In this document: in pieces, positions 1,948 through 29,646 of the stretch | How positions within the stretch are numbered: position 1 is the first letter of the stretch | Layout: every line of letters starts with the position of its first letter | NCBI GenBank assembly: GCA_029865945.1 | Contig: JARXAH010000091.1 | Span: 1-61,645, forward strand | DNA length: 61,645 nucleotides | DNA from: Bacteriovoracaceae bacterium | Lineage (GTDB): Bacteria > Bdellovibrionota > Bacteriovoracia > Bacteriovoracales > Bacteriovoracaceae | Reading direction: 5' to 3' | Made by a program: the position numbers and the translations under genes | The notes under the pieces: model-generated | What the model was told of the DNA's origin: nothing | Database searches by the model: none | Seen by the model: the letters and a program-made list of their open reading frames with translations, nothing else

Positions 1948-3192
1948 TTAAACCAAACACAGCAAAAAATAATCAGCACTCATCATCCAAGTTTGAGAAT
2001 TAACTTTTCTCCAAATATTTTTTTCATATACCAATTGAAAATGCGGAACACCTAAAGCGGATTGAAATTTTTGATAAGTAGTATCTAACTTAGAATCTTT
2101 ATACTTACACTCAACCGAAAACCATGGAATTCGATTTTTTACAACTAAAAAATCCACTTCTCGCTTCTCTTTATCCCGTAAATAATAAAGCTTAAAATCT
2201 CCTTCTCCTGTGTCTTCCCAAAATTGACAGGATTTTAATAAATGTACGGCGATCATATTTTCAAATTTGGATGCAGGATTCTCAACTTGCGTCCAATCAT
2301 AAAGGTAGGGTTTGCCTTCTTTTTTAAGAGTACGGGTAATCGATTTTTGATATGGCCGAATGACAAATAAAAAATATAGTTCTTGTAGAAAACTGAGCCA
2401 GCGCTTTACTGTATCAAAGGAAACGTCCAAATCTTCACGTAACGAAGCAATACTAAGGGGTGACCCCACCTTTTCAGGAAGGAGGGATGTCAAGATTTCA
2501 ACTTGTCCAATCTCAACAATGCGGCTTAGATCGCGTAAATCTTCGCGAACAATTTTTTCGATTCGACCTCTTTGCCATAGGTTAAAAATTTTCTTATCCC
2601 TTGCAAAAAAGGGTTCTGGGAAACCACTGAACTCAAAAAGTTGTTCTAATAGATCCCAAGAAGTTTTTTGATTTATTGATGATGTTGATGATGGATGAAT
2701 GGCCATTTTTAGAAAATCATCTGGCGATACAAGCTCACTCTTGGAAACTTCGGCCAAACTTAAAGGGTTGAGACGAAAATGAAAATACCGACCTAATAAG
2801 GAGTCCCCCCCTTTTTTGTAAACATTCAACCTCGCACTTCCAGTCACCAATATTTTTATTTCAGCGTGGTAAAGATCGTAAATTCCTTTAAGTTTACGCT
2901 TCCAAAATTTGGATTTGTGTATTTCATCTAGGATAACGAGCCGATTTTTATTTTGCTCATTTAAATTAAATTTATCTAAAAAAGCATTGGGGTTTTTCGC
3001 CCACTGTCTTTGAAATTGAGTATCATCCCAGTTGAGATAAATAGATTCATCAAAAGATTTTTGTAGGGACTTAGCAAGAGTGGTTTTACCCACTTGTCTT
3101 GGACCAGAAATAAAGGCCATTTTTGACCGATCTAGTGCCAATTGTTTGACCTGAGAAAGTATATTTCGAGTAGCATCATTCTTTTTCTTCAT
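1948..3192 (-). CDS. AAA-family ATPase with C-terminal DUF4143 domain
   Basis: A 414-residue cytoplasmic protein. Near residue 30 it has the Walker A motif GPRQVGKTT and near residue 88 a Walker B-like LVILDEIHK, followed by a sensor-like VTGSAR; this is the AAA_14 ATPase type. The C-terminal half includes REVDFLVVKN and an ECKYKDS element, the nuclease-like arrangement typical of DUF4143. Such proteins are widespread and often of accessory origin; their role is unsettled. It is monocistronic, convergent with the upstream plus-strand pair, and a pair of GGTC palindromes lies 25-75 bp before its start, which could mediate autoregulation. Confidence 0.85.
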   Translation of the reverse strand: MKKKNDATRNILSQVKQLALDRSKMAFISGPRQVGKTTLAKSLQKSFDESIYLNWDDTQFQRQWAKNPNAFLDKFNLNEQNKNRLVILDEIHKSKFWKRKLKGIYDLYHAEIKILVTGSARLNVYKKGGDSLLGRYFHFRLNPLSLAEVSKSELVSPDDFLKMAIHPSSTSSINQKTSWDLLEQLFEFSGFPEPFFARDKKIFNLWQRGRIEKIVREDLRDLSRIVEIGQVEILTSLLPEKVGSPLSIASLREDLDVSFDTVKRWLSFLQELYFLFVIRPYQKSITRTLKKEGKPYLYDWTQVENPASKFENMIAVHLLKSCQFWEDTGEGDFKLYYLRDKEKREVDFLVVKNRIPWFSVECKYKDSKLDTTYQKFQSALGVPHFQLVYEKNIWRKVNSQTWMMSADYFLLCLV

Positions 3193-3216
3193 CTGACTAG
3201 ATTAGCATAGACAAGA

Positions 3217-3266
3217 ATTTGGTCAAGACCAAATGACACATAGGCACGAATTTGGTCAGGCTTGAC
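3217..3266. promoter_or_regulatory. Paired GGTC inverted repeats (candidate operator)
   Basis: At 3217-3234 an 8-bp inverted repeat ATTTGGTC/GACCAAAT is separated by 2 bp. At 3249-3266 the same left half AATTTGGTCA recurs and ends in TTGACC, giving GGTCA-4 bp-TGACC. The left halves start 33 bp apart, about three helical turns, so two dimers could sit on one DNA face. The sites lie directly upstream of the AAA/DUF4143 gene start (3192) and behind the guaB stop. Binding by any regulator is inference. Confidence 0.5.
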
Positions 3267-3289
3267 CGGGCGTACCGAGCATAAAGGAC

Positions 3290-4372
3290 CTACCGATAGT
3301 TGGGCGCTTCATTAGTGATAATCACATCATGAACATGACTTTCTTTTAGTCCTGAAGTACTGATGCGAACAAATTTCGCTTTTGAAACGAGCTCATCTAA
3401 ATTTTTTGCTCCCACATAACCCATCCCTGATCGAAGGCCTCCCATGAGCTGATGGACTTGTTGCTCTAAGGTTCCTCGGTAAGGAGTCATTCCTTCCACA
3501 CCTTCGGGAACTAATTTTTTTTCTTCGAGTACATCACTTTGACCATAACGATCACGCGACCCCATACTCATGGCACCGAGTGATCCCATACCACGGTACG
3601 ATTTGTAGCGCTGTCCATTGATCGTGAGTACTGGGCCTGGTGATCGATCGGTTCCTGCTAGGAGTGATCCCACCATCACGGCACTGGCTCCGGCCGCCAA
3701 AGCTTTCACCACATCACCAGAATATTTTATTCCTCCGTCTGCAATCATGGGCACCCCATGAGAGCGACAAATGGGAGCACACTCTAGCACCGCTTGAAAT
3801 TGAGGAACACCAATACCTGCCACCATGCGAGTCGTACAAATGGATCCTGGCCCGACACCCACCTTGATTCCATCGGCGCCATTTTCAATTAAAAAAGCGC
3901 ACGCTTCCGGGGTGGCCACGTTTCCAACGATTACTTCAATTTTATTTTGATATTTTTGCTTCATTTTTTTGAGCATCTCAACAACGCCCAAACTGTGTCC
4001 GTGGGCCGTATCAATCAAGATCACTTCCACGCCCGCGTTCACCAGCGACTCTGCTCGCTCCCATTCACTTGGGCCCACACCAATGGCCGCACAGACCGGA
4101 TGTACGCCACTTTGAATAATTTTTTTTATTTCTTCTGCTTGGGTAGCAAAGGACATATTTTTATGGACTACCCCTGCGCCGCCTAACTCCCCCATCCCTA
4201 TGGCCATGGAGGCCTCTGTAACTGTATCCATCGCACTGGAAATAAGAGGAATTTTTAAGGTAATTTTTCGTGTCAACTTTGAAGCTAAATTAACGTCTTT
4301 AGGTAAAATTTCAGAATATCCAGGCCGAATAAGCACATCATCGTAAGCGAGAGAAACTGACATTTTTTCCAT
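3290..4372 (-). CDS. guaB: Inosine-5'-monophosphate dehydrogenase lacking CBS domains
   Basis: Catalyses NAD-dependent oxidation of IMP to XMP, the committed step to GMP. The 360-residue protein has the TIM-barrel core with catalytic Cys179 in [19 protein letters not shown] typical of IMPDH, the mobile flap [10 protein letters not shown] and the IMPDH-specific Arg-Tyr dyad (275-276). The usual tandem CBS (Bateman) insert is absent: the strand around GVVHKNMS runs straight into [10 protein letters not shown]. Usual length is about 485. GMP reductase, also CBS-less, is disfavoured by the flap dyad and the VAGIGVPQ segment. Loss of the CBS pair should remove the adenine/guanine nucleotide control of the enzyme. 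ATG at 4372 follows AAAGGA at about 9 bp; an internal ATG at 4363 is also possible. Confidence 0.93.
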
Positions 4373-15113: not shown

Positions 15114-16592
15114 TTACTTACTTGAAATTTCAAAATGCTGAGATAGCAAATCAAAGGCGCCATGGGAACAAAAAACGTTGGGCAAAAAATTTGTCTTATT
15201 CTGGAGCAAACTAATCAGGCTTTCCTCAATGTCAGAGAGTAAAAAAATCTCCCCGCTCTCCCTCACTATCTTGGTTGGGTCTCGCTCCCAAAGGACATTT
15301 TCGGTTGTCTTATCACGCACCAAAGTTTTTTGAGATTTCAGTAAAAAAATATCTTTCTTAGGTAAGTCATCGACGATCCAGTCACTAGGGCCGCCTCGCT
15401 TGGATAGATAATCTTGCATTTCTTCAAGCTTATCTTTGGCGCGCTTTACTGCACGGTGATAGTGGGCCAAGTCACTTGCGTCCAAAATTTTTTGATTAAA
15501 TTGATCAATGCGCACCGTGCGAGGAGATTTCGCGTGAATGAGATGATCGACCATGTCGGCAATTCGTGCATGATCTTTTAAGTGACCGCCGTAATAGAGT
15601 TTTTGAAGTAGTACGATAAAATAATGGTCGTTAAATCCATAAAACCGCTCAGGATCATTTTCCACCATATCAAGCAAATCGCCGTACCTGTAAATAAGTT
15701 CTTCTTGTAGGAGATGAAAACAAATATCTTCGGCGAGAGCATCAAATTTTGCTCCTCTCGCTGAGCGAATCACTTGCGAATACCAAGCAAACCGGGACAT
15801 GAGAAAATCTTGAATACAGTAGATTGCTTTTTCGTTGATCGCCAAAATTTCTTGGCCAGCAATTTTCACCACTCTAAAATGGTGCAACAAATAATCTCGA
15901 TCATACGCCCCGTAGTTGAGGCCCGTGTAGTGGGCATCTCTCAGTAAGTAATCCATGCGGTCACAATCCACTTCGGAGTGAATAATTTGATTTGCCAAAA
16001 AGTTGGGGCCAATACCTTTCACTAAATCAGAAATCTCCTTGGGATCAAGACCATATTTTTCTAAAATGGTAGTGATTCCCTGAGGGCCCTTAGTTTTTTT
16101 AATAATGAAAGACCCCAGGTGCTCATGATTATCTGGATGGGCCTTAGGCTTAGATTTTGAATTTTTGGTTTCCGCAAATTTTATATAAGACGCTTCAGTC
16201 GTATGAGAAAAAGGAAATGTTCCAATATCATGCAAGAGGGCAGCAACTCGAATCGATTGATGAAATTTCACTTCTGAATTTTCATTCGGGCCCGAAATCA
16301 AATTGCCTTGGAATAAAATTTCGTCAGGAACGGCCTTGCCTATGGACTGCAATATGGAGTGAGCATTATACATCACGCCAATGGAGTGACCGTAGCGTGA
16401 ATGTTCTGCACCCGGAAAAGTATAGAAGGAAAAACCCAATTGCTTAATCCAACGCAACCTTTGAAAAAAAGGAGATTGAATAATTTCCCATTCTAGTGGA
16501 GTGAGTTGAATAAAGCCGTAAAGAACATCATAAATAAGATGTTTTTTAGGGATCGCGTTGATGGCCCTACTTGAGATTGACTTGTCATCCAT
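15114..16592 (-). CDS. HD-domain phosphohydrolase (dGTPase-like, COG1078 type)
   Basis: A 492-residue cytoplasmic protein. Near the N terminus are FFQRLRWIKQLG and GAEHSRYGHSIGVM, the conserved opening of this family; the HD pair is in AALLHDIGTFPFSH, and the last metal Asp is in SEVDCDRMDYLLRDAHYTG. These match the YwfO/SAMHD1-like branch of HD phosphohydrolases, some of which hydrolyse dNTPs. The C-terminal 200 residues are less conserved. No genomic partner is evident; it is followed by an intergenic region before ftsE. Confidence 0.85.
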   Translation of the reverse strand: MDDKSISSRAINAIPKKHLIYDVLYGFIQLTPLEWEIIQSPFFQRLRWIKQLGFSFYTFPGAEHSRYGHSIGVMYNAHSILQSIGKAVPDEILFQGNLISGPNENSEVKFHQSIRVAALLHDIGTFPFSHTTEASYIKFAETKNSKSKPKAHPDNHEHLGSFIIKKTKGPQGITTILEKYGLDPKEISDLVKGIGPNFLANQIIHSEVDCDRMDYLLRDAHYTGLNYGAYDRDYLLHHFRVVKIAGQEILAINEKAIYCIQDFLMSRFAWYSQVIRSARGAKFDALAEDICFHLLQEELIYRYGDLLDMVENDPERFYGFNDHYFIVLLQKLYYGGHLKDHARIADMVDHLIHAKSPRTVRIDQFNQKILDASDLAHYHRAVKRAKDKLEEMQDYLSKRGGPSDWIVDDLPKKDIFLLKSQKTLVRDKTTENVLWERDPTKIVRESGEIFLLSDIEESLISLLQNKTNFLPNVFCSHGAFDLLSQHFEISSK

Positions 16593-16624: not shown

Positions 16625-16858
16625 TTAATTTACGGATTTTTTCTTATTATAGCCGCCCGATTTTTTTACTTTCTCTAGTACTTTTTCCAATAAAACTTTC
16701 GCTTCGTGGCGCAAAGAATTCTCATGAATAAAGCGATAAAAATTTTCCACATCGGAAGTAGCACGAAAGGCCTTAAGCATGGATGCTTTTGATTGCGCAG
16801 TCGCTTTTACGGTAGGAGCATTAGTTGTTGTTGTTGTGGAATTCGAGGTTGTGGCCAT
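16625..16858 (-). CDS. Small hypothetical protein, Thr-rich N terminus
   Basis: ATG 16858 is preferred over the frame start at 16885 because GGAG lies 7 bp upstream. The 77-residue product has a low-complexity Ser/Thr/Asn/Ala head (first 25 residues) and a basic helical tail (NFYRFIHENSLRHEAKVLLE then a Lys-rich end). It is soluble and carries no signal. I do not recognise it. It lies between the HD protein and the GAFTGA-less regulator, same strand, with about 115 bp to the latter. Confidence 0.6.
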   Translation of the reverse strand: MATTSNSTTTTTNAPTVKATAQSKASMLKAFRATSDVENFYRFIHENSLRHEAKVLLEKVLEKVKKSGGYNKKKSVN

Positions 16859-16973: not shown

Positions 16974-18506
16974 TTAATTCTGCGCGGTATTTTGTTGCGT
17001 CTTATGCTCATCAAAAATTCCATAAGAGTGCAATTTATTATAAAGCGTCTTAACGGTAATTCCTAAAGACTTGGCCGCTCTAGTTTTATTTCCGTTTAAA
17101 TGCTCTAACGTCTTAAGAATGTGTCCTTTTTCTAATTCGAAAAGGGTCACTTCAATATATTCAGAACTTGAGGCCTTCTCTACTGGAATTTCACGATCAA
17201 AATCACTTGATTGAAGAAGATCGATTTGCTCGACGATTTTTCCATCAGTGAGCATGTATGATCTTTCCATGATATTTCTTAGTTCAGTCACGTTGGCACC
17301 CCAAGCGTGATTCGTAAGTTCTGCTAGTACTTTTGTCGAAATAGATTTCTTCTGAGATTTCCCTAAATTTAAGTAGTAATCAGCAAGAAGTTTGATATCT
17401 TCTTTTCGCTCGATTAATCCTGGAAGCGTAATCGTTACTGTGCTCAAGCGATAGAATAAATCTTCACGAAATCTTTTCTCAGTTACTTCTCGGCGCAAGT
17501 TTTTCTTAGCAGTAGCGATAAAGCGAATATTGATTGCTATTTTATCTTTTGATCCGATTCGAGAAATACAACCAGTAGTCATAATTTGAATGAGTTTTGA
17601 TTGCATTCCTAAACTCAATTCATGAACATCGTTAAAAACAACCACTCCACCGTTGGAAGCTTCAAGTAGTCCTGCTCTTTCATTTTGTCCAAAAAGTTCT
17701 TTCTCTACGGTTAATTCATCTTTTACTGCGCATTCAAATATATTAAAGGGACTAGATTTTCTTTGTCCTACTTGGTGAATTTTCTTAGCAAATAATCGCT
17801 TACCAGTACCCGTTGGGCCTTCGATAAGAATAGGAAATTCTTCGCTCGCCGTGCGATTTGCTAATTTGATGGCATCAACGATGCGGTTATCATGACCGAT
17901 AATTTCAATATTAAATGAACTATCAGAATTTCCGCTAAAAAAAGTACTTTCAGATTGTTTTTCTAATTTATTTACTAATTCTTTATTCAAGTATTTCACC
18001 ATTAAATAGTTTTTCATATTTTCCATCGGAAGAGAGATCGATTGGAAAATTTCTTTTAATTTAATCACATCTTTTTCACCGAAATTTCGATCTGCGCGAT
18101 CAGACTGAATGTGAAGCGTTCCAAGAATTACTCCATCAATCATCATGGGAATAACCATTTCTGCAAAAATTGATTCCGGAAGTCTTCCATCGCTATAAAT
18201 AGGATCTCTTTTTACGTTATTGCTAAAGTATGGGCGTTTTGTTTTTGCCACCTGACCAGAAGTACCAACGCCGCGTGAGATAATCGCAGATGTAACCACT
18301 GGGCCTTCTTGAGTGGCGACCATTTGAGTTGATTCATCGTTATAAGCAAGAAAAATTTCTACGCGCTTATCACCCATCGCTTCCCAAACATAAGTGGCAA
18401 GCTTGTGAAAGAAAGATCCTTCTTCCAAGCTCGATAAAAGAGATGTCACCAACATTTGGTTTTGATTTAGGGCGGAGTTAATTACTGTTGATTCCAAAGA
18501 CTGCAT
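16974..18506 (-). CDS. Divergent NtrC-type regulator (GAF-AAA-Fis HTH) without GAFTGA
   Basis: Start ATG 18506 has GAGG 5 bp upstream (a GTG two codons earlier is possible). Domains: GAF-like sensor at about 25-165, AAA+ domain at about 200-430 with Walker A GPTGTGKR and arginine-finger region RFREDLFYRL, and a Fis-type helix-turn-helix at about 455-500 (GNKTRAAKSLGITVKTLYNKL). The sigma-54 contact loop is gone: after ELFG the usual 21 residues to the GG before Walker B are only 12, and no GAFTGA is present. Walker B reads VVVFNDV rather than hhhhDE. It should bind DNA but not remodel sigma-54 holoenzyme in the usual way; compare TyrR and Rhodobacter NtrC, which lost GAFTGA. Confidence 0.88.
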   Translation of the reverse strand: MQSLESTVINSALNQNQMLVTSLLSSLEEGSFFHKLATYVWEAMGDKRVEIFLAYNDESTQMVATQEGPVVTSAIISRGVGTSGQVAKTKRPYFSNNVKRDPIYSDGRLPESIFAEMVIPMMIDGVILGTLHIQSDRADRNFGEKDVIKLKEIFQSISLPMENMKNYLMVKYLNKELVNKLEKQSESTFFSGNSDSSFNIEIIGHDNRIVDAIKLANRTASEEFPILIEGPTGTGKRLFAKKIHQVGQRKSSPFNIFECAVKDELTVEKELFGQNERAGLLEASNGGVVVFNDVHELSLGMQSKLIQIMTTGCISRIGSKDKIAINIRFIATAKKNLRREVTEKRFREDLFYRLSTVTITLPGLIERKEDIKLLADYYLNLGKSQKKSISTKVLAELTNHAWGANVTELRNIMERSYMLTDGKIVEQIDLLQSSDFDREIPVEKASSSEYIEVTLFELEKGHILKTLEHLNGNKTRAAKSLGITVKTLYNKLHSYGIFDEHKTQQNTAQN

Positions 18507-18683
18507 ACTCACCTCTTGTCTAAATTTTATAGGGGTCGAATTCTTAAAACCTGTTTATTACTAAAAATAGTGCCCATAAGCTGGACGCATATCGGATATG
18601 ACAATTATACGCAGCGCGTAAAATAAATACAAGATAAATATAATCAGGAATGTAAGAATTTCACGAAATGTCAATAAATTAGA

Positions 18684-20018
18684 CTAGTTAGAGAAGCGAG
18701 GGGAGTAGCAATTTTCCAGCGTATTACTAAGTGGGCCCAAAATTTCGCCGTCTTTCGTCATAATGTAGATTCTTTGTTCGGCCTTGGAGCGTGAAAAGAC
18801 CTTGCGAGATGTAAAAACAATAAACTCTCCATCGTTGGAAAACGTGGGATCCTCATTGGACCCATAATTTTTAGTCAGTCTGACCAGATTATTCCCATCG
18901 ACACCGATGCGATAGATATCAAACATATTATCGACCCAAGACGAAAAAACAATTTCAGAACCATCGGGAGAAAACCGTGGAGTGGCATTAAATTGCCCAA
19001 CAAAGCTGATTCGTTTGACGTTCTGCTCGAGAGCAGAAGGATCAAGGGTATAAATATTTGCTCTCCCCGCGCGGTTTGATAAAAACGTCATCACTTTTCC
19101 ATCGGCGCGATAAGATGGATCCACATCTTCCGCGGAATTATTGGTAACTTGTCTAGAGGCCTTTGTGTTTAAATCGTAATAAAAAATATCTGCGTTCCCT
19201 TTATAGGACTGAGTAAGAAAAACTCCTTTTCCGTCGGGAGAATAGACGGCACCAGAATTCATACCAGTGTTATCTAGTATGTTGCGAGAGGTCATGGTGG
19301 ATAAATCTAATTCATGGAGCGCTACATTTTTGATACGTTTTTTACTATCTATTAAACTATAAATGATTTTTTTATTATCGGGAGAAAACGCAGGAGAGAT
19401 GGCAATTCCCTTATGATCGGTGAGTTTCTTTAAATTAAAACCATCAAAATCCATCATGTAAATTTCTTTAATCATTTTTTTGGCGGTCGCGTCTTTCGTT
19501 GACGCAAATATAATTTGAGACTTAAAGACAGAGGATTTTTTTGTAATGGATTGAAAAATGAGATCTGATAATTCATGGCCATCTTTGCGAGTAACGGCGA
19601 CAGGACGGTAAACTTTACTATCCATGGAAGTTTTATTTAAGTTGACTTGAAACACCACAACCCGAGTTTCTCTCGGCAAGCAAGAAAGATGCACGACGAA
19701 GTGAAATCCTTCTTTGATGATGTCGTTGATTCTTTTGGCCCAATTGAGAGAATCATTAATTTCTTTTTCCGCTTTATTGCGTGAAAATACTTCAAAAATA
19801 TGTTGGTAAAAAGATAAATCATTGCGAACGATCTCAACCACCTCTCGGTGCTGAGTGAGCGATACTCCAGGGCCACTACACTCAAAACTTTCAATCAGAA
19901 TTTTGTCTTTTCCTTTTTTGGCCACTCCCACTGCAACTTCCACAAACTTATCATCAGCAAAAAGGGAGATCGAAAACGAAAAAGTAAAAAGGGAGAACAA
20001 TAAAATAATAATTTTCAT
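18684..20018 (-). CDS. tolB: Tol-Pal system periplasmic protein TolB
   Basis: Signal peptide at residues 1-21, N-terminal alpha/beta domain, then a beta-propeller with repeated TolB/WD40-like blades: SPAFSPDNKKIIYS, GAVYSPDGKGVFLTQS, DPSYRADGKVMTFLSNRAG, TPRFSPDGSEIVFSS and DPTFSNDGEFIVFTS. TolB couples the TolQRA motor to Pal and outer-membrane constriction. Overlaps tolA by 4 bp. The gene pal, which normally follows, is not downstream here; the next same-strand gene is the GAFTGA-less regulator about 180 bp on. Confidence 0.94.
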   Translation of the reverse strand: MKIIILLFSLFTFSFSISLFADDKFVEVAVGVAKKGKDKILIESFECSGPGVSLTQHREVVEIVRNDLSFYQHIFEVFSRNKAEKEINDSLNWAKRINDIIKEGFHFVVHLSCLPRETRVVVFQVNLNKTSMDSKVYRPVAVTRKDGHELSDLIFQSITKKSSVFKSQIIFASTKDATAKKMIKEIYMMDFDGFNLKKLTDHKGIAISPAFSPDNKKIIYSLIDSKKRIKNVALHELDLSTMTSRNILDNTGMNSGAVYSPDGKGVFLTQSYKGNADIFYYDLNTKASRQVTNNSAEDVDPSYRADGKVMTFLSNRAGRANIYTLDPSALEQNVKRISFVGQFNATPRFSPDGSEIVFSSWVDNMFDIYRIGVDGNNLVRLTKNYGSNEDPTFSNDGEFIVFTSRKVFSRSKAEQRIYIMTKDGEILGPLSNTLENCYSPRFSN

Positions 20019-20827
20019 AGAGGAAACACTATCACAATATTTCCTCTGAGTAATCTAGGAACTATATCTTTATGAGGGATCATAAAAGGGGCCGCTTTCA
20101 TGATCGACTGAACAGCACGTTGGTCAAACTCCGCTTCCCCTGACGATGATAAAACCTCGTGAGAAAGTAATTTTCCGGTTCCATCAATAAATATTTTAAT
20201 TCGTGTCCTAAGCGGCCGATCAATGAGATAGGAAGGAAGAATCCAAAAATTTTTAATGCGCGAACTAAGCTGTGCCGTATAAATTTCTATTTCCTCTTGC
20301 AGTTGTTGATCACTTAAGCCTTCAACGGCCTGGCCTTGCATTAACTTATTTCCCTCTAGCGCCAAGCGTTTCAATTGTTCTCGTTTTTCATCACTGAGCT
20401 CAATTTTTTTATTATTATCTTTCGTTTCAATTTTGGAAGGTTTTACTTTCTTTTTACTTAATTCTTTGAGGAGATCGTCAATTTGCGCTGGGGGAGGATC
20501 TTTCACTTCGGTTGGTTTTACTTCGGACTCATTTTCATCTTTTACTTCCTTTTTCTCATCAACCTTAGTTTCTTCCTTCGCCACATCTTGGGACACATCC
20601 AGGTCCATTTTTCTTAGCTCTTCAAGAGTAAATTTTGGCATGGAAACCACGTCGACTTGGATGGAGGGAACAATGACTCTCCCCTCTTCTTCCTCTTTCC
20701 AAAAATGAATATAAGTGACGGCCAAAATTAAAAATAAAAAAAAGAGATGAAAAGAAAATGACTGGTAAAACGACTTGACTCTCCACGATTCAAGCGTTTC
20801 AAAAATGGAGGGAAGGTTATTTTTCAT
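20015..20827 (-). CDS. tolA: TolA/TonB-family energy transducer
   Basis: A 270-residue protein with one transmembrane helix at about 26-45, a long charged Lys/Glu linker (about 60-160) and a TonB/TolA C-terminal domain (RIKNFWILPSYLIDRPLRT, VLSSSGEAEFDQRAVQSI). Its position between tolR and tolB makes it the TolA of this system, spanning the periplasm from TolQR to TolB/Pal. It is shorter than E. coli TolA (421). Overlaps tolR by 11 bp and tolB by 4 bp. Confidence 0.9.
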   Translation of the reverse strand: MKNNLPSIFETLESWRVKSFYQSFSFHLFFLFLILAVTYIHFWKEEEEGRVIVPSIQVDVVSMPKFTLEELRKMDLDVSQDVAKEETKVDEKKEVKDENESEVKPTEVKDPPPAQIDDLLKELSKKKVKPSKIETKDNNKKIELSDEKREQLKRLALEGNKLMQGQAVEGLSDQQLQEEIEIYTAQLSSRIKNFWILPSYLIDRPLRTRIKIFIDGTGKLLSHEVLSSSGEAEFDQRAVQSIMKAAPFMIPHKDIVPRLLRGNIVIVFPL

Positions 20828-21236
20828 ATTCTGTAATTAAAGAAATATTTTCCACGCCGCCTCGTTTGAGTTCTCCCATCACTTTAACGACGACTTCATA
20901 TTTTAATTGGCCATCTCCTCGCAAGTAGAGAACTTTCTTCTTGGCCACTTTTAGTTTATCCATGATCACGGCCATCAATTTCTTTTCCGGGATAGCAACT
21001 TTCCCCAGGTAGAAAGTTGGCCCCATACCGATGGAGAGAACCACAAGATCATCAGATAGTTTTACCTGCTCTACTTTCTTAGAAATGGGCAATTTTAAGG
21101 GAATGCCGTTAAAGAGGAACGGTGCACTGATCATAAAAATAACTAAGAGAACCAACATGACATCCACCATGGGTGTTACGTTGATTTCTGCGAGATAATC
21201 TTTTTGTTGATCAGAATTTTGCGGCCCCATGGCCAT
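20817..21236 (-). CDS. tolR: TolR/ExbD-family proton-channel subunit
   Basis: A 139-residue ExbD/TolR protein: cytoplasmic N terminus, the conserved INVTPMVDVMLVLLVIFM with the proton-relay Asp at about residue 25, then a periplasmic domain. With TolQ it forms the proton-driven motor that energises TolA. AAGGAA precedes ATG 21236. It lies 13 bp after tolQ and overlaps tolA by 11 bp. Confidence 0.95.
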   Translation of the reverse strand: MAMGPQNSDQQKDYLAEINVTPMVDVMLVLLVIFMISAPFLFNGIPLKLPISKKVEQVKLSDDLVVLSIGMGPTFYLGKVAIPEKKLMAVIMDKLKVAKKKVLYLRGDGQLKYEVVVKVMGELKRGGVENISLITEYEK

Positions 21237-21249
21237 AAAAAGTTTCCTT

Positions 21250-21963
21250 TTATTTTTTAAGTCCGACGGCCATCACTCTCTCGAAAAGATTTATCAAATC
21301 TTGCCCATAAGCAGTCATCGTGCTTCGGTATTCTTGAAAACGACCGGAGACAAAATTAAAAAAAATGCTCGCTGGAATACTGGCCGCCAATCCTGCGGCC
21401 GTAGCGATGAGCGCTTCTGCGATCCCCGGGGCAACGGCTTCGAGGGTTCCTTGTCCCATAGCGAGCCCGCGAAACGAATCCACAATTCCCCAAACCGTTC
21501 CAAACAATCCAATGAAGGGAGAAACTGAAGCAATGGTGGCCAAGTAAGAACGATATTTTTCATGAGGTAAAAAAAATTCGATGGAAATGCTAGAAACCGA
21601 TCTTTGCATATAGTCGTTGGAAATTTTATTTTGCGGGCCAAAAATATCGCCCTTTCCACTGCTAATTAAATCTTCGTTAAACTTGATCAGCTGATCATAG
21701 ACATTTCTAAAAACTCTCGCCTTCGGAGAAAAGTGAAACTTTGAGGAATTTTGGTAAATATGCTCCATGACCATAAGATCGGCACTGCGCATGGGATCGC
21801 CCAAATTATCAAAAAGGCGATTATCTTCTTTCATTTGCTTGAATGCTTTTAAGTAGTAATACCAAATCGCCCATGAAATCAACGAGGCGACAACAAGAAC
21901 GATCATCACTATTTTACCTACTAAACTTGCGTTCCAAATAATTTCCCAAAAACTATGATTCAT
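21250..21963 (-). CDS. tolQ: TolQ/MotA/ExbB-family proton channel
   Basis: A 237-residue inner-membrane protein with three hydrophobic segments: about 14-36, about 135-160 (TIASVSPFIGLFGTVWGIV, the conserved ExbB/TolQ element) and about 178-200 (EALIATAAGLAASIPA). The Thr and Pro positions typical of the channel are present. It partners TolR and TolA. GAGG precedes the ATG. It is preceded on the same strand by five genes of unknown function. Confidence 0.95.
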   Translation of the reverse strand: MNHSFWEIIWNASLVGKIVMIVLVVASLISWAIWYYYLKAFKQMKEDNRLFDNLGDPMRSADLMVMEHIYQNSSKFHFSPKARVFRNVYDQLIKFNEDLISSGKGDIFGPQNKISNDYMQRSVSSISIEFFLPHEKYRSYLATIASVSPFIGLFGTVWGIVDSFRGLAMGQGTLEAVAPGIAEALIATAAGLAASIPASIFFNFVSGRFQEYRSTMTAYGQDLINLFERVMAVGLKK

Positions 21964-27965: not shown

Positions 27966-28985
27966 ATGAAAATTATTTTACTTGCGCTATTCTTTTCAGT
28001 TCTCACTATTTCAAAATCACAAAGTGCTGATCCTGAAGAGTGCAACGAGTTATTCGTAGATCTCATGGAAAAAAATCAATATGACAGTATGAGAAAGATG
28101 CTAGATAAAAATAATAAACCTAAGAGAAAAAAATTTACGGTAAACAGAACAGTTGGGGATTACTGCCAACTATTCTCGCAAGACGAAAAAAATATTTTTC
28201 TTAAACTGTATTTAGATTTAAAGAAGAAATTTATCAATAATCTAAGGCCGGCCATTCTTGAAATTGGCGCAGGGAAAGCATATGTTGCCATGCAATCGGC
28301 AGGAATTGCAGGAGTACTCGCGAACACAGCACCAGAGCACTTGGCCTATACGGCAACAGAAAATCTTGAAAAATCTTTTATCCAGCAAAGAGATCAGACT
28401 TTTAGTTTTGAAAATTACCCCGTCGTCGTTGCTATCAATGGATCAACAGAAACGAATTCTTACTCCAATAACAACTTTCATTATTTAGCTGGAAGGCTCT
28501 TTGAAAACTATACTGATGAGGAACTACGCGAGTTCGCCCCTCTTGGAGGATATGATTTAATCCCTGATGTATACGGAGTTATGGCCTATACCCTTAAGCT
28601 TTCCGAAGACTTAAGGAAAGTATTTAGAATCTTAAGGCCAGAGGGAAATTTAATTTTAAATATCCCAAGCGATTATCATACCCCGGAATCGATCAAGCAA
28701 TTTAATCAAATACCAAAACCAGAGTTAAAATTAGAGAGTTTTCCTTATCTTCCTGATAGCAAATACAAAACATTTATACTTGTTGAAAAAGATGGTAGAA
28801 AAATTGCCATAAGCATGAAGGAATGGCTCTTAAAGTATCAAACTGCTTTTAGTATTGAAGATTATGGAGATTTTCTTGTTCTCACAAAAAAAATCAACTC
28901 CACAGAAAATGAAATACCGTCTCTTAAATTAATAGATGTGAATCTAGGCGTTGCGCCATTTTCTAGGCTTTTTATCCAGCAATAA
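27966..28985 (+). CDS. Methyltransferase-fold protein with signal peptide
   Basis: ATG 27966 (AGAGGA 8 nt upstream) is chosen over TTG 27963. The first 19 residues are a standard signal peptide (MKIILLALFFSVLTISKSQSA). The rest resembles a class I SAM methyltransferase: ILEIGAGKAYVAM at about residue 97 as motif I, YDLIPDVYGVMAYT as the later acidic strand, and ILRPEGNLILNIPS as the typical post-II strand. An exported SAM enzyme is unexpected because the periplasm lacks SAM. Either the signal serves as a membrane anchor, the fold is used for something else, or the domain call is wrong. Monocistronic. Confidence 0.65.
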   Translation: MKIILLALFFSVLTISKSQSADPEECNELFVDLMEKNQYDSMRKMLDKNNKPKRKKFTVNRTVGDYCQLFSQDEKNIFLKLYLDLKKKFINNLRPAILEIGAGKAYVAMQSAGIAGVLANTAPEHLAYTATENLEKSFIQQRDQTFSFENYPVVVAINGSTETNSYSNNNFHYLAGRLFENYTDEELREFAPLGGYDLIPDVYGVMAYTLKLSEDLRKVFRILRPEGNLILNIPSDYHTPESIKQFNQIPKPELKLESFPYLPDSKYKTFILVEKDGRKIAISMKEWLLKYQTAFSIEDYGDFLVLTKKINSTENEIPSLKLIDVNLGVAPFSRLFIQQ

Positions 28986-29010
28986 AATCCTATTGATTGC
29001 AGCAAAAAAT

Positions 29011-29646
29011 TCAGTCTAATTTCTTCCAACCCATAGAGTGATTCACGAAATCTTGGGGTGAGATCCCCTCTTCCCCTTCTGGAACTGGCGCAGGAAAAAA
29101 ATATTTAGCCCACTTATCTGGATAAATTTGAAAATGCATTTTCTTTAAGGGTGGTAAAAACCATTTTTTGTCGGCCGGTTTCAAAATTGAATCCAAAAAT
29201 TTATAAATAAGCTCAGAGCAATAAAGGAGCTCATTTCCATTCTTGTCGGTGTTGTTCCAACTAAATTTCTCATCGTAGGGCAAACCATTCCAAGTAGGGA
29301 GAGCGTTTTTCAATTGGTGCGAAGAAAGTTTCACTTTTGATCTTAAAAATAAAACAGGCACTTGTTTATTTCTTCGCTTCAAAAATTCATCCAAAGGAGT
29401 GAGCTTTACTTCGCCCCAAGACTCTAAAATCAGCGCTTCATGGAATCGTTTATCTTCCCCTACCCTCATCACAACCATACCCATGTGGGAGTAGAGCGAG
29501 CGCTCTTCAAGCTCAATCAATCGGCACATGTAACAGGGGAGAGAGACGAAAATGAGATCTCCGGTTTTTAAATTTGTCGCTTCTGAATGAAAAGATAAGG
29601 CGGCAATAAGGAATAAAAAAAAATTACGTTTTATTTTTAGAATCAT
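29011..29646 (-). CDS. Permuted papain-like (YiiX/YebB-type) exported hydrolase
   Basis: A 211-residue protein with a signal peptide (about 1-23, HSEA). The mature part starts with TGDLIFVSLPC and LYSHMGMVVMR, the His strand of the permuted NlpC/P60-papain fold, and later has ELLYCSELIYKFL with the Cys nucleophile; this Gly-Asp-Leu-Ile ... His ... Tyr-Cys-Ser-Glu order defines the YiiX/YaeF class. These enzymes probably cleave lipids or amides in the envelope. It overlaps the cyclic-nucleotide-binding gene by 23 bp. GGAG is rather far (about 15 nt) from the ATG. Confidence 0.78.
   Translation of the reverse strand: MILKIKRNFFLFLIAALSFHSEATNLKTGDLIFVSLPCYMCRLIELEERSLYSHMGMVVMRVGEDKRFHEALILESWGEVKLTPLDEFLKRRNKQVPVLFLRSKVKLSSHQLKNALPTWNGLPYDEKFSWNNTDKNGNELLYCSELIYKFLDSILKPADKKWFLPPLKKMHFQIYPDKWAKYFFPAPVPEGEEGISPQDFVNHSMGWKKLD

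Follow-up and report, generated by a model that had tools for sequence, protein, structure and literature searches.

The window, as we call the whole stretch of DNA analysed here (61,645 nt), corresponds to contig C18 in a draft genome of 3.08 Mb and 103 contigs, and carries a gene for a putative transcriptional regulator in a tol locus (Table 1). The order tolA, tolB, regulator, small basic protein, HD-domain protein and FtsE-like gene was nearly constant among the loci compared. The regulator gene runs from an ATG at 18506 to a stop at 16974, with the Shine-Dalgarno sequence AGAGG within AAGAGGTGAGTATG; an alternative start is the GTG at 18512. The Pfam matches of the protein were GAF, Sigma54_activat, AAA lid and HTH_8, the central AAA+ domain being of the Sigma54_activat type (PF00158, E 1.7e-40), in agreement with the predicted structure, and the helix-turn-helix (HTH) of the Fis type (PF02954, E 3e-11). 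The protein is neither NtrC proper, its N-terminus being a GAF domain without a receiver domain, nor TyrR proper, the NCBIfam TyrR equivalog giving a score of 168.5 bits where the cut-off is 576.

Table 1. Features of the regulator gene, its promoter and its neighbours in the window.
Feature	Position	Strand	Basis or remark
Regulator, GAF - AAA+ - Fis HTH, 510 aa	16974..18506	minus	Open frame, Pfam
GAF domain, residues 32-153	18048..18413	minus	Pfam PF13185/PF01590; structural match 3ci6, Z 17.7
AAA+ and lid, residues 202-432, degenerate	17211..17903	minus	Pfam PF00158, PF25601; AlphaFold model
Walker A, GPTGTGK	17799..17819	minus	Intact
Remnant of L1 (sigma54-contact loop), 12 residues, QNERAGLLEASN	17652..17687	minus	Without GAFTGA
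Walker B, VVVFNDV	17625..17645	minus	Canonical TLFLDEI
Arginine-finger region, FREDLFYRL	17445..17471	minus	Intact
Sensor II position	17286..17288	minus	T replaces R
Fis-type HTH	17025..17138	minus	Near invariant across the family, GNKT.AAK.LGITVKTLYNKLHSYG
-35 hexamer, TTGTAT	18627..18632	minus	CTTGTA in 56/56 aligned promoters
-10 hexamer, TATAAT	18604..18609	minus	17 nt from -35
Dyad TTACGCGCTGCGTAT, proposed autoregulatory operator	18607..18621	minus	In spacer, overlaps -10
tolB	18684..20018	minus	Upstream neighbour
tolA	20015-20827		Upstream of tolB
tolR	20817-21236		Named from sequence and order only
tolQ	21250-21963		Named from sequence and order only
77-aa basic protein (NFYRFIHEN.LR.EA)	16625..16858	minus	Downstream neighbour
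HD-domain phosphohydrolase-like protein	15114..16592	minus	Next conserved neighbour

The 77-aa protein is one of a small family with the pattern NFR..DIENFYRFIHEN.LRREA and a basic tail, which had no match in Pfam or NCBIfam. Of 144 genomes of the phylum, 121 encode a member, almost always only one, and among the loci examined its gene adjoined the regulator in 92; it also adjoined a canonical regulator ortholog (L171) in another family.

The original prediction described the regulator as an NtrC-type protein that had lost its sigma54-contact loop and altered its Walker B motif while keeping Walker A, the arginine-finger region and the Fis HTH. The translation bore this out: exactly 12 residues separate ELFG from the GG before Walker B, without GAFTGA, as against 21 in the genome's canonical paralogs, Walker B reads VVVFNDV, and the three retained elements were all in place. 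An additional defect, absent from that description, was found at sensor II, where the window protein reads ANVTEL and 12 of 12 canonical orthologs read GNxREL. The deletion recurred, in frame and with some variation, in some 40 related sequences that come from independent assemblies, and so reflects neither chance nor a sequencing error.

Among 101 orthologs, the GAFTGA or GSFTGA loop was present in 12, all of which also had the DE of Walker B (canonical orthologs: L170-L176, L039, L111 and the basal L117, L119 and L122). The other 89 (degenerate orthologs) had no GAFTGA, and only one of them, L065 with a loop of 10 residues, had the Walker B DE. Orthologs keeping GAFTGA had been named in advance as evidence against the prediction; they do exist, but they represent the ancestral state and thus document loss of the motif rather than an error. 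Taken together, the comparison shows that GAFTGA and the acidic pair of Walker B are gone from the predicted proteins of almost the whole Bacteriovoracaceae family. The seven orthologs taken from other families of the phylum (L170-L176) were without exception canonical, so it was the family of the window that lost the motif.

In a tree built from an alignment that omitted the loop and Walker B columns, canonical orthologs lay either basal to the degenerate clade or outside it, so that the protein has a bacterial enhancer-binding protein (bEBP) architecture that lost GAFTGA in descent from canonical ancestors, and the canonical L039 and L111 were placed close to degenerate orthologs. All degenerate orthologs fell on one side of a single branch, to which the loss of GAFTGA tentatively maps, the support of that branch being weak (58). 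The short loops formed two groups, and a single-clade constraint was rejected (AU p 0.029); the topology shows separate deletions of the predicted loop in at least two lineages. One clade, outside its own short-loop subclade, had loops 18-23 residues long whose sequence was scrambled, apparently an intermediate state, and in L113, at the base of the clade of the window, the full-length loop reads NAFIGQ. Two orthologs of the family, both in the tol locus, had decayed much further, L178 (genome G024) and L179 (genome G001), with 28% and 26% identity, respectively; neither has a recognisable ELFG, yet the HTH (GITIKTLYNKLH or GITVKTLYNKL) is retained.

The AlphaFold model of the regulator had a mean pLDDT of 90.2 (about 95 in the AAA+ domain) and a low pTM (0.55), because the placement of the domains was uncertain. 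The modelled AAA+ domain aligned with those of FleQ, NtrC1 and NtrX over about 237 residues (Z about 29). FleQ of Pseudomonas was the closest structural match (Z 29.7), and the top Foldseek matches were to Brucella abortus NtrX (5m7n/o/p; rmsd of the AAA+ 1.6 over 237 residues), which shares the AAA+ fold but has a receiver domain. FleQ acts at both sigma54 and sigma70 promoters; it binds c-di-GMP and keeps its sigma54 activity.

Conservation differed between the domains. At a GAF identity of about 0.3, AAA+ identity was 0.37 in degenerate and 0.67 in canonical orthologs, whereas HTH identity was 0.72 and 0.64, respectively, in a comparison where the canonical sample was small and more diverse (28 pairs, nine of them in the GAF bin of about 0.3). 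The direction of the difference, a less conserved AAA+ domain in the degenerate orthologs, is clear from these alignments, and its size is approximate. The Walker A lysine was retained in 87 of the 89 degenerate orthologs, and the position of the catalytic glutamate held E in 8. Walker B substitutions were of many kinds, so relaxed selection on hydrolysis fits better than one selected substitution; the decay of Walker B, the arginine finger and sensor II was heterogeneous between lineages. Given that Walker A is retained but Walker B is not, the regulator probably binds ATP but does not hydrolyse it. Motif status in the 101 orthologs, domain-wise conservation and the AlphaFold model all gave good support to two further parts of the original prediction, namely that the protein does not open sigma54 promoters in the standard way and that constraint on its ATPase has weakened.

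The named relatives were Bacteriovoracaceae, Halobacteriovorax and Bacteriovorax. The family Bacteriovoracaceae is related to known predatory bacteria. All 129 family genomes searched had a relative (E below 1e-55), in most cases full-length and scoring far above paralogs. Of 124 family genomes, 116 carry rpoN, as does the genome of the window, where the majority of the paralogs examined retained GAFTGA, indicating that sigma54 itself has not been lost. By this comparison, the motif loss is specific to the regulator and not a consequence of losing sigma54. A search for the strict -24/-12 element (TGGCACN5TTGCW) found none at the regulator loci of either canonical or degenerate genomes; the sole match, in L012, adjoined another paralog.

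Two other proteins of the genome of the window also lack GAFTGA. A second regulator, L007 (G000:C24, about 2473-3339), is a 681-aa protein with GAF, AAA+ and HTH domains and an N-terminus that, by sequence, looks PilZ-like; it likewise has no L1 loop (IFGGEKDLGVLKRC), and its Walker B reads VCLKDV. A third bEBP-like protein, L006 (G000:C10, about 28323-29261), has SFRISSNSQHIQ in place of the loop and LLLAEI as Walker B.

Alignment of 56 loci revealed a common sigma70-type promoter before the regulator, consisting of CTTGTA, a spacer, a -10 element and a conserved block upstream of -35. This block (18633-18660 in the window; consensus ACACCtGAGcAtTTTAG, ACACCtGAGcA) is not a dyad and may bind another factor. 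A dyad, TWACGCnnnGCGTWA (TWACGCAnnGCGTWA), lies about 38 nt past the start of the -35 element, at about +1 or over the -10 element, and had a mean score of 9.2 in the aligned promoters versus 6.1 in shuffles. Its half-sites change symmetrically in several genomes (ACGC/GCGT, ACAC/GTGT and ATGC/GCAT). The window has only a poor downstream copy; its good dyad is the one in the spacer. A consensus promoter scan gave matches at the chance level and missed the conserved promoter, since TTGTAT was below its threshold.

In 856 kb of tol loci, where about 6.5 matches were expected by chance, a dyad matrix found 58 sites, of which 57 (including two behind mis-called starts) were regulator promoters; since the matrix was trained on the same promoters, their recovery is partly by construction, but the absence of sites elsewhere is not. 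The one remaining match in the tol loci was at a bEBP stop codon of L017, and no candidate site by the matrix lay near tolB or the 77-aa gene except the regulator's own promoter. In the genome of the window, with at most one mismatch, the regulator promoter was the only intergenic dyad and the other four lay inside reading frames. The strict dyad pattern gave no recurring target in other genomes, where perfect sites preceded unrelated genes. A profile of the whole promoter gave strong E-values for the regulator promoter in most family genomes; its other matches, with rare exceptions, were no better than E about 1e-3, and the second-best ones were weak and inconsistent and yielded no consistent second promoter.

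The dyad also stands 50-70 nt before the start of canonical orthologs from two other families, in which the gene lies at other loci (p = 0.008 and 0.004 by shuffling), so that the site seemingly goes with the gene and not with the tol locus. This joint occurrence is the best evidence that the regulator itself reads the dyad. The canonical L111 and L039 share the regulator promoter, and autoregulation would therefore predate the loss of sigma54 contact. No dyad was found before the canonical orthologs L171-L175, outside the tol setting, or before the degenerate L179.

We consider it reasonably probable that the regulator, descended from a bEBP, is a sigma54-independent DNA-binding protein that binds ATP, probably without hydrolysing it, and represses its own promoter. 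In the proposed mechanism, a bEBP ancestor would have become such a regulator in Bacteriovoracaceae, active as a dimer or higher oligomer whose state depends on a GAF ligand and on ATP that is bound, not hydrolysed. Binding to the dyad, which overlaps the -10 element or the start in its own sigma70-type promoter, would repress that promoter; action with sigma70 is suggested by this very combination of promoter and conserved dyad. The canonical ancestor probably repressed its own promoter already, so that on loss of the sigma54 contact the activating function would have gone while binding to the promoter remained. It would be unusual for a repressor to control nothing but its own gene; additional targets, with sites that are weaker or of another kind, are therefore probable, and the regulator may act at other sigma70 promoters through weaker sites. 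Against this explanation, a different factor could read the dyad, which is missing from the degenerate L179 and from five canonical orthologs that lie outside the tol setting, and the branch uniting the degenerate orthologs is weak (support 58).

The regulator might instead activate sigma70 promoters in the manner of R. capsulatus NtrC, binding upstream of -35 and recruiting RNA polymerase in an ATP-binding-dependent way. The action of the GAFTGA-less NtrC of Rhodobacter and Caulobacter at sigma70 promoters (PMC10274813), the kept Walker A of the degenerate orthologs and the conserved block upstream of -35 are in keeping with such a role, but the dyad at the -10 element or the start is in the position of a repressor site, the upstream block is no dyad, and the profile that contains the block found no consistent second promoter; we regard this role as unlikely. 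It is improbable that the AAA+ domain is a non-functional remnant of a protein sliding towards loss, in which only HTH binding matters and ATP and the GAF ligand are irrelevant. The heterogeneous decay of Walker B, the arginine finger and sensor II would fit a remnant, but the Walker A lysine persists in 87 of 89 degenerate orthologs, the reading frames are open and full-length across the family, and GAF identity was higher in degenerate than in canonical orthologs (0.41 versus 0.29), the canonical ones coming from more distant genomes. Equally to be weighed is that all former targets have been given up, the regulator's own promoter being the sole operator, the AAA+ pseudo-ATPase mainly a GAF/ATP sensor in the tol locus and DNA binding a matter of feedback only, which we judge distinctly improbable. 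Continued work with sigma54 through an altered contact that compensates for the missing GAFTGA is very improbable: rpoN is present, but the loop was deleted twice, the Walker B acids and the sensor II arginine changed together, and the regulator loci have no strict TGGCACN5TTGCW element. Although the window comes from a draft assembly of 103 contigs, an assembly or sequencing error as the source of the loop deletion is ruled out by the occurrence of an in-frame deletion of equal length in tens of independent genomes.

The kind of change proposed in the preferred reading is already known from TyrR, HupR, alpha-proteobacterial NtrC and VpsR. TyrR, DhaR, HupR, VpsR and YplP are bEBP relatives with a defective GAFTGA, of which TyrR, DhaR and HupR are sigma70 dependent (Francke et al., PMC3162934); they have other sensor domains and regulons, whereas the regulator described here forms a lineage-wide ortholog group in which canonical orthologs survive. 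In Caulobacter, NtrC without the GAFTGA loop acts at sigma70 promoters, and NtrX also lacks GAFTGA, unlike FlbD and TacA (PMC10274813). Both ATP binding and hydrolysis were predicted to matter for Caulobacter NtrC (PMC10274813), and R. capsulatus NtrC needs ATP binding but not hydrolysis, as cited in the same paper. Alpha-proteobacterial NtrC resembles the regulator in being a bEBP without L1 and acts at sigma70 promoters, but it has a receiver domain and is under two-component control, whereas the regulator has a GAF domain and a degenerate Walker B. A 2025 survey of sigma54 kept only GAFTGA-bearing proteins and did not mention Bdellovibrio (PMC12316311); such a filter would drop the regulator family. 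Our literature search, which covered few subscription papers, found no paper combining Bdellovibrio and GAFTGA. As far as the literature searched shows, what would be new is that the change is lineage-wide, that canonical orthologs survive along with intermediates, that the loop was deleted repeatedly and that the conserved dyad is private.

GAFTGA-less activators have so far been known singly, and here a whole family would show the passage from an ATP-driven sigma54 activator to a sigma54-independent regulator. The orthologs offer a natural series for asking what an enhancer-binding protein must keep after sigma54 has ceased to be its partner, with a candidate operator at hand. The tol locus of these bacteria thereby gains a conserved regulator and an unstudied small protein.
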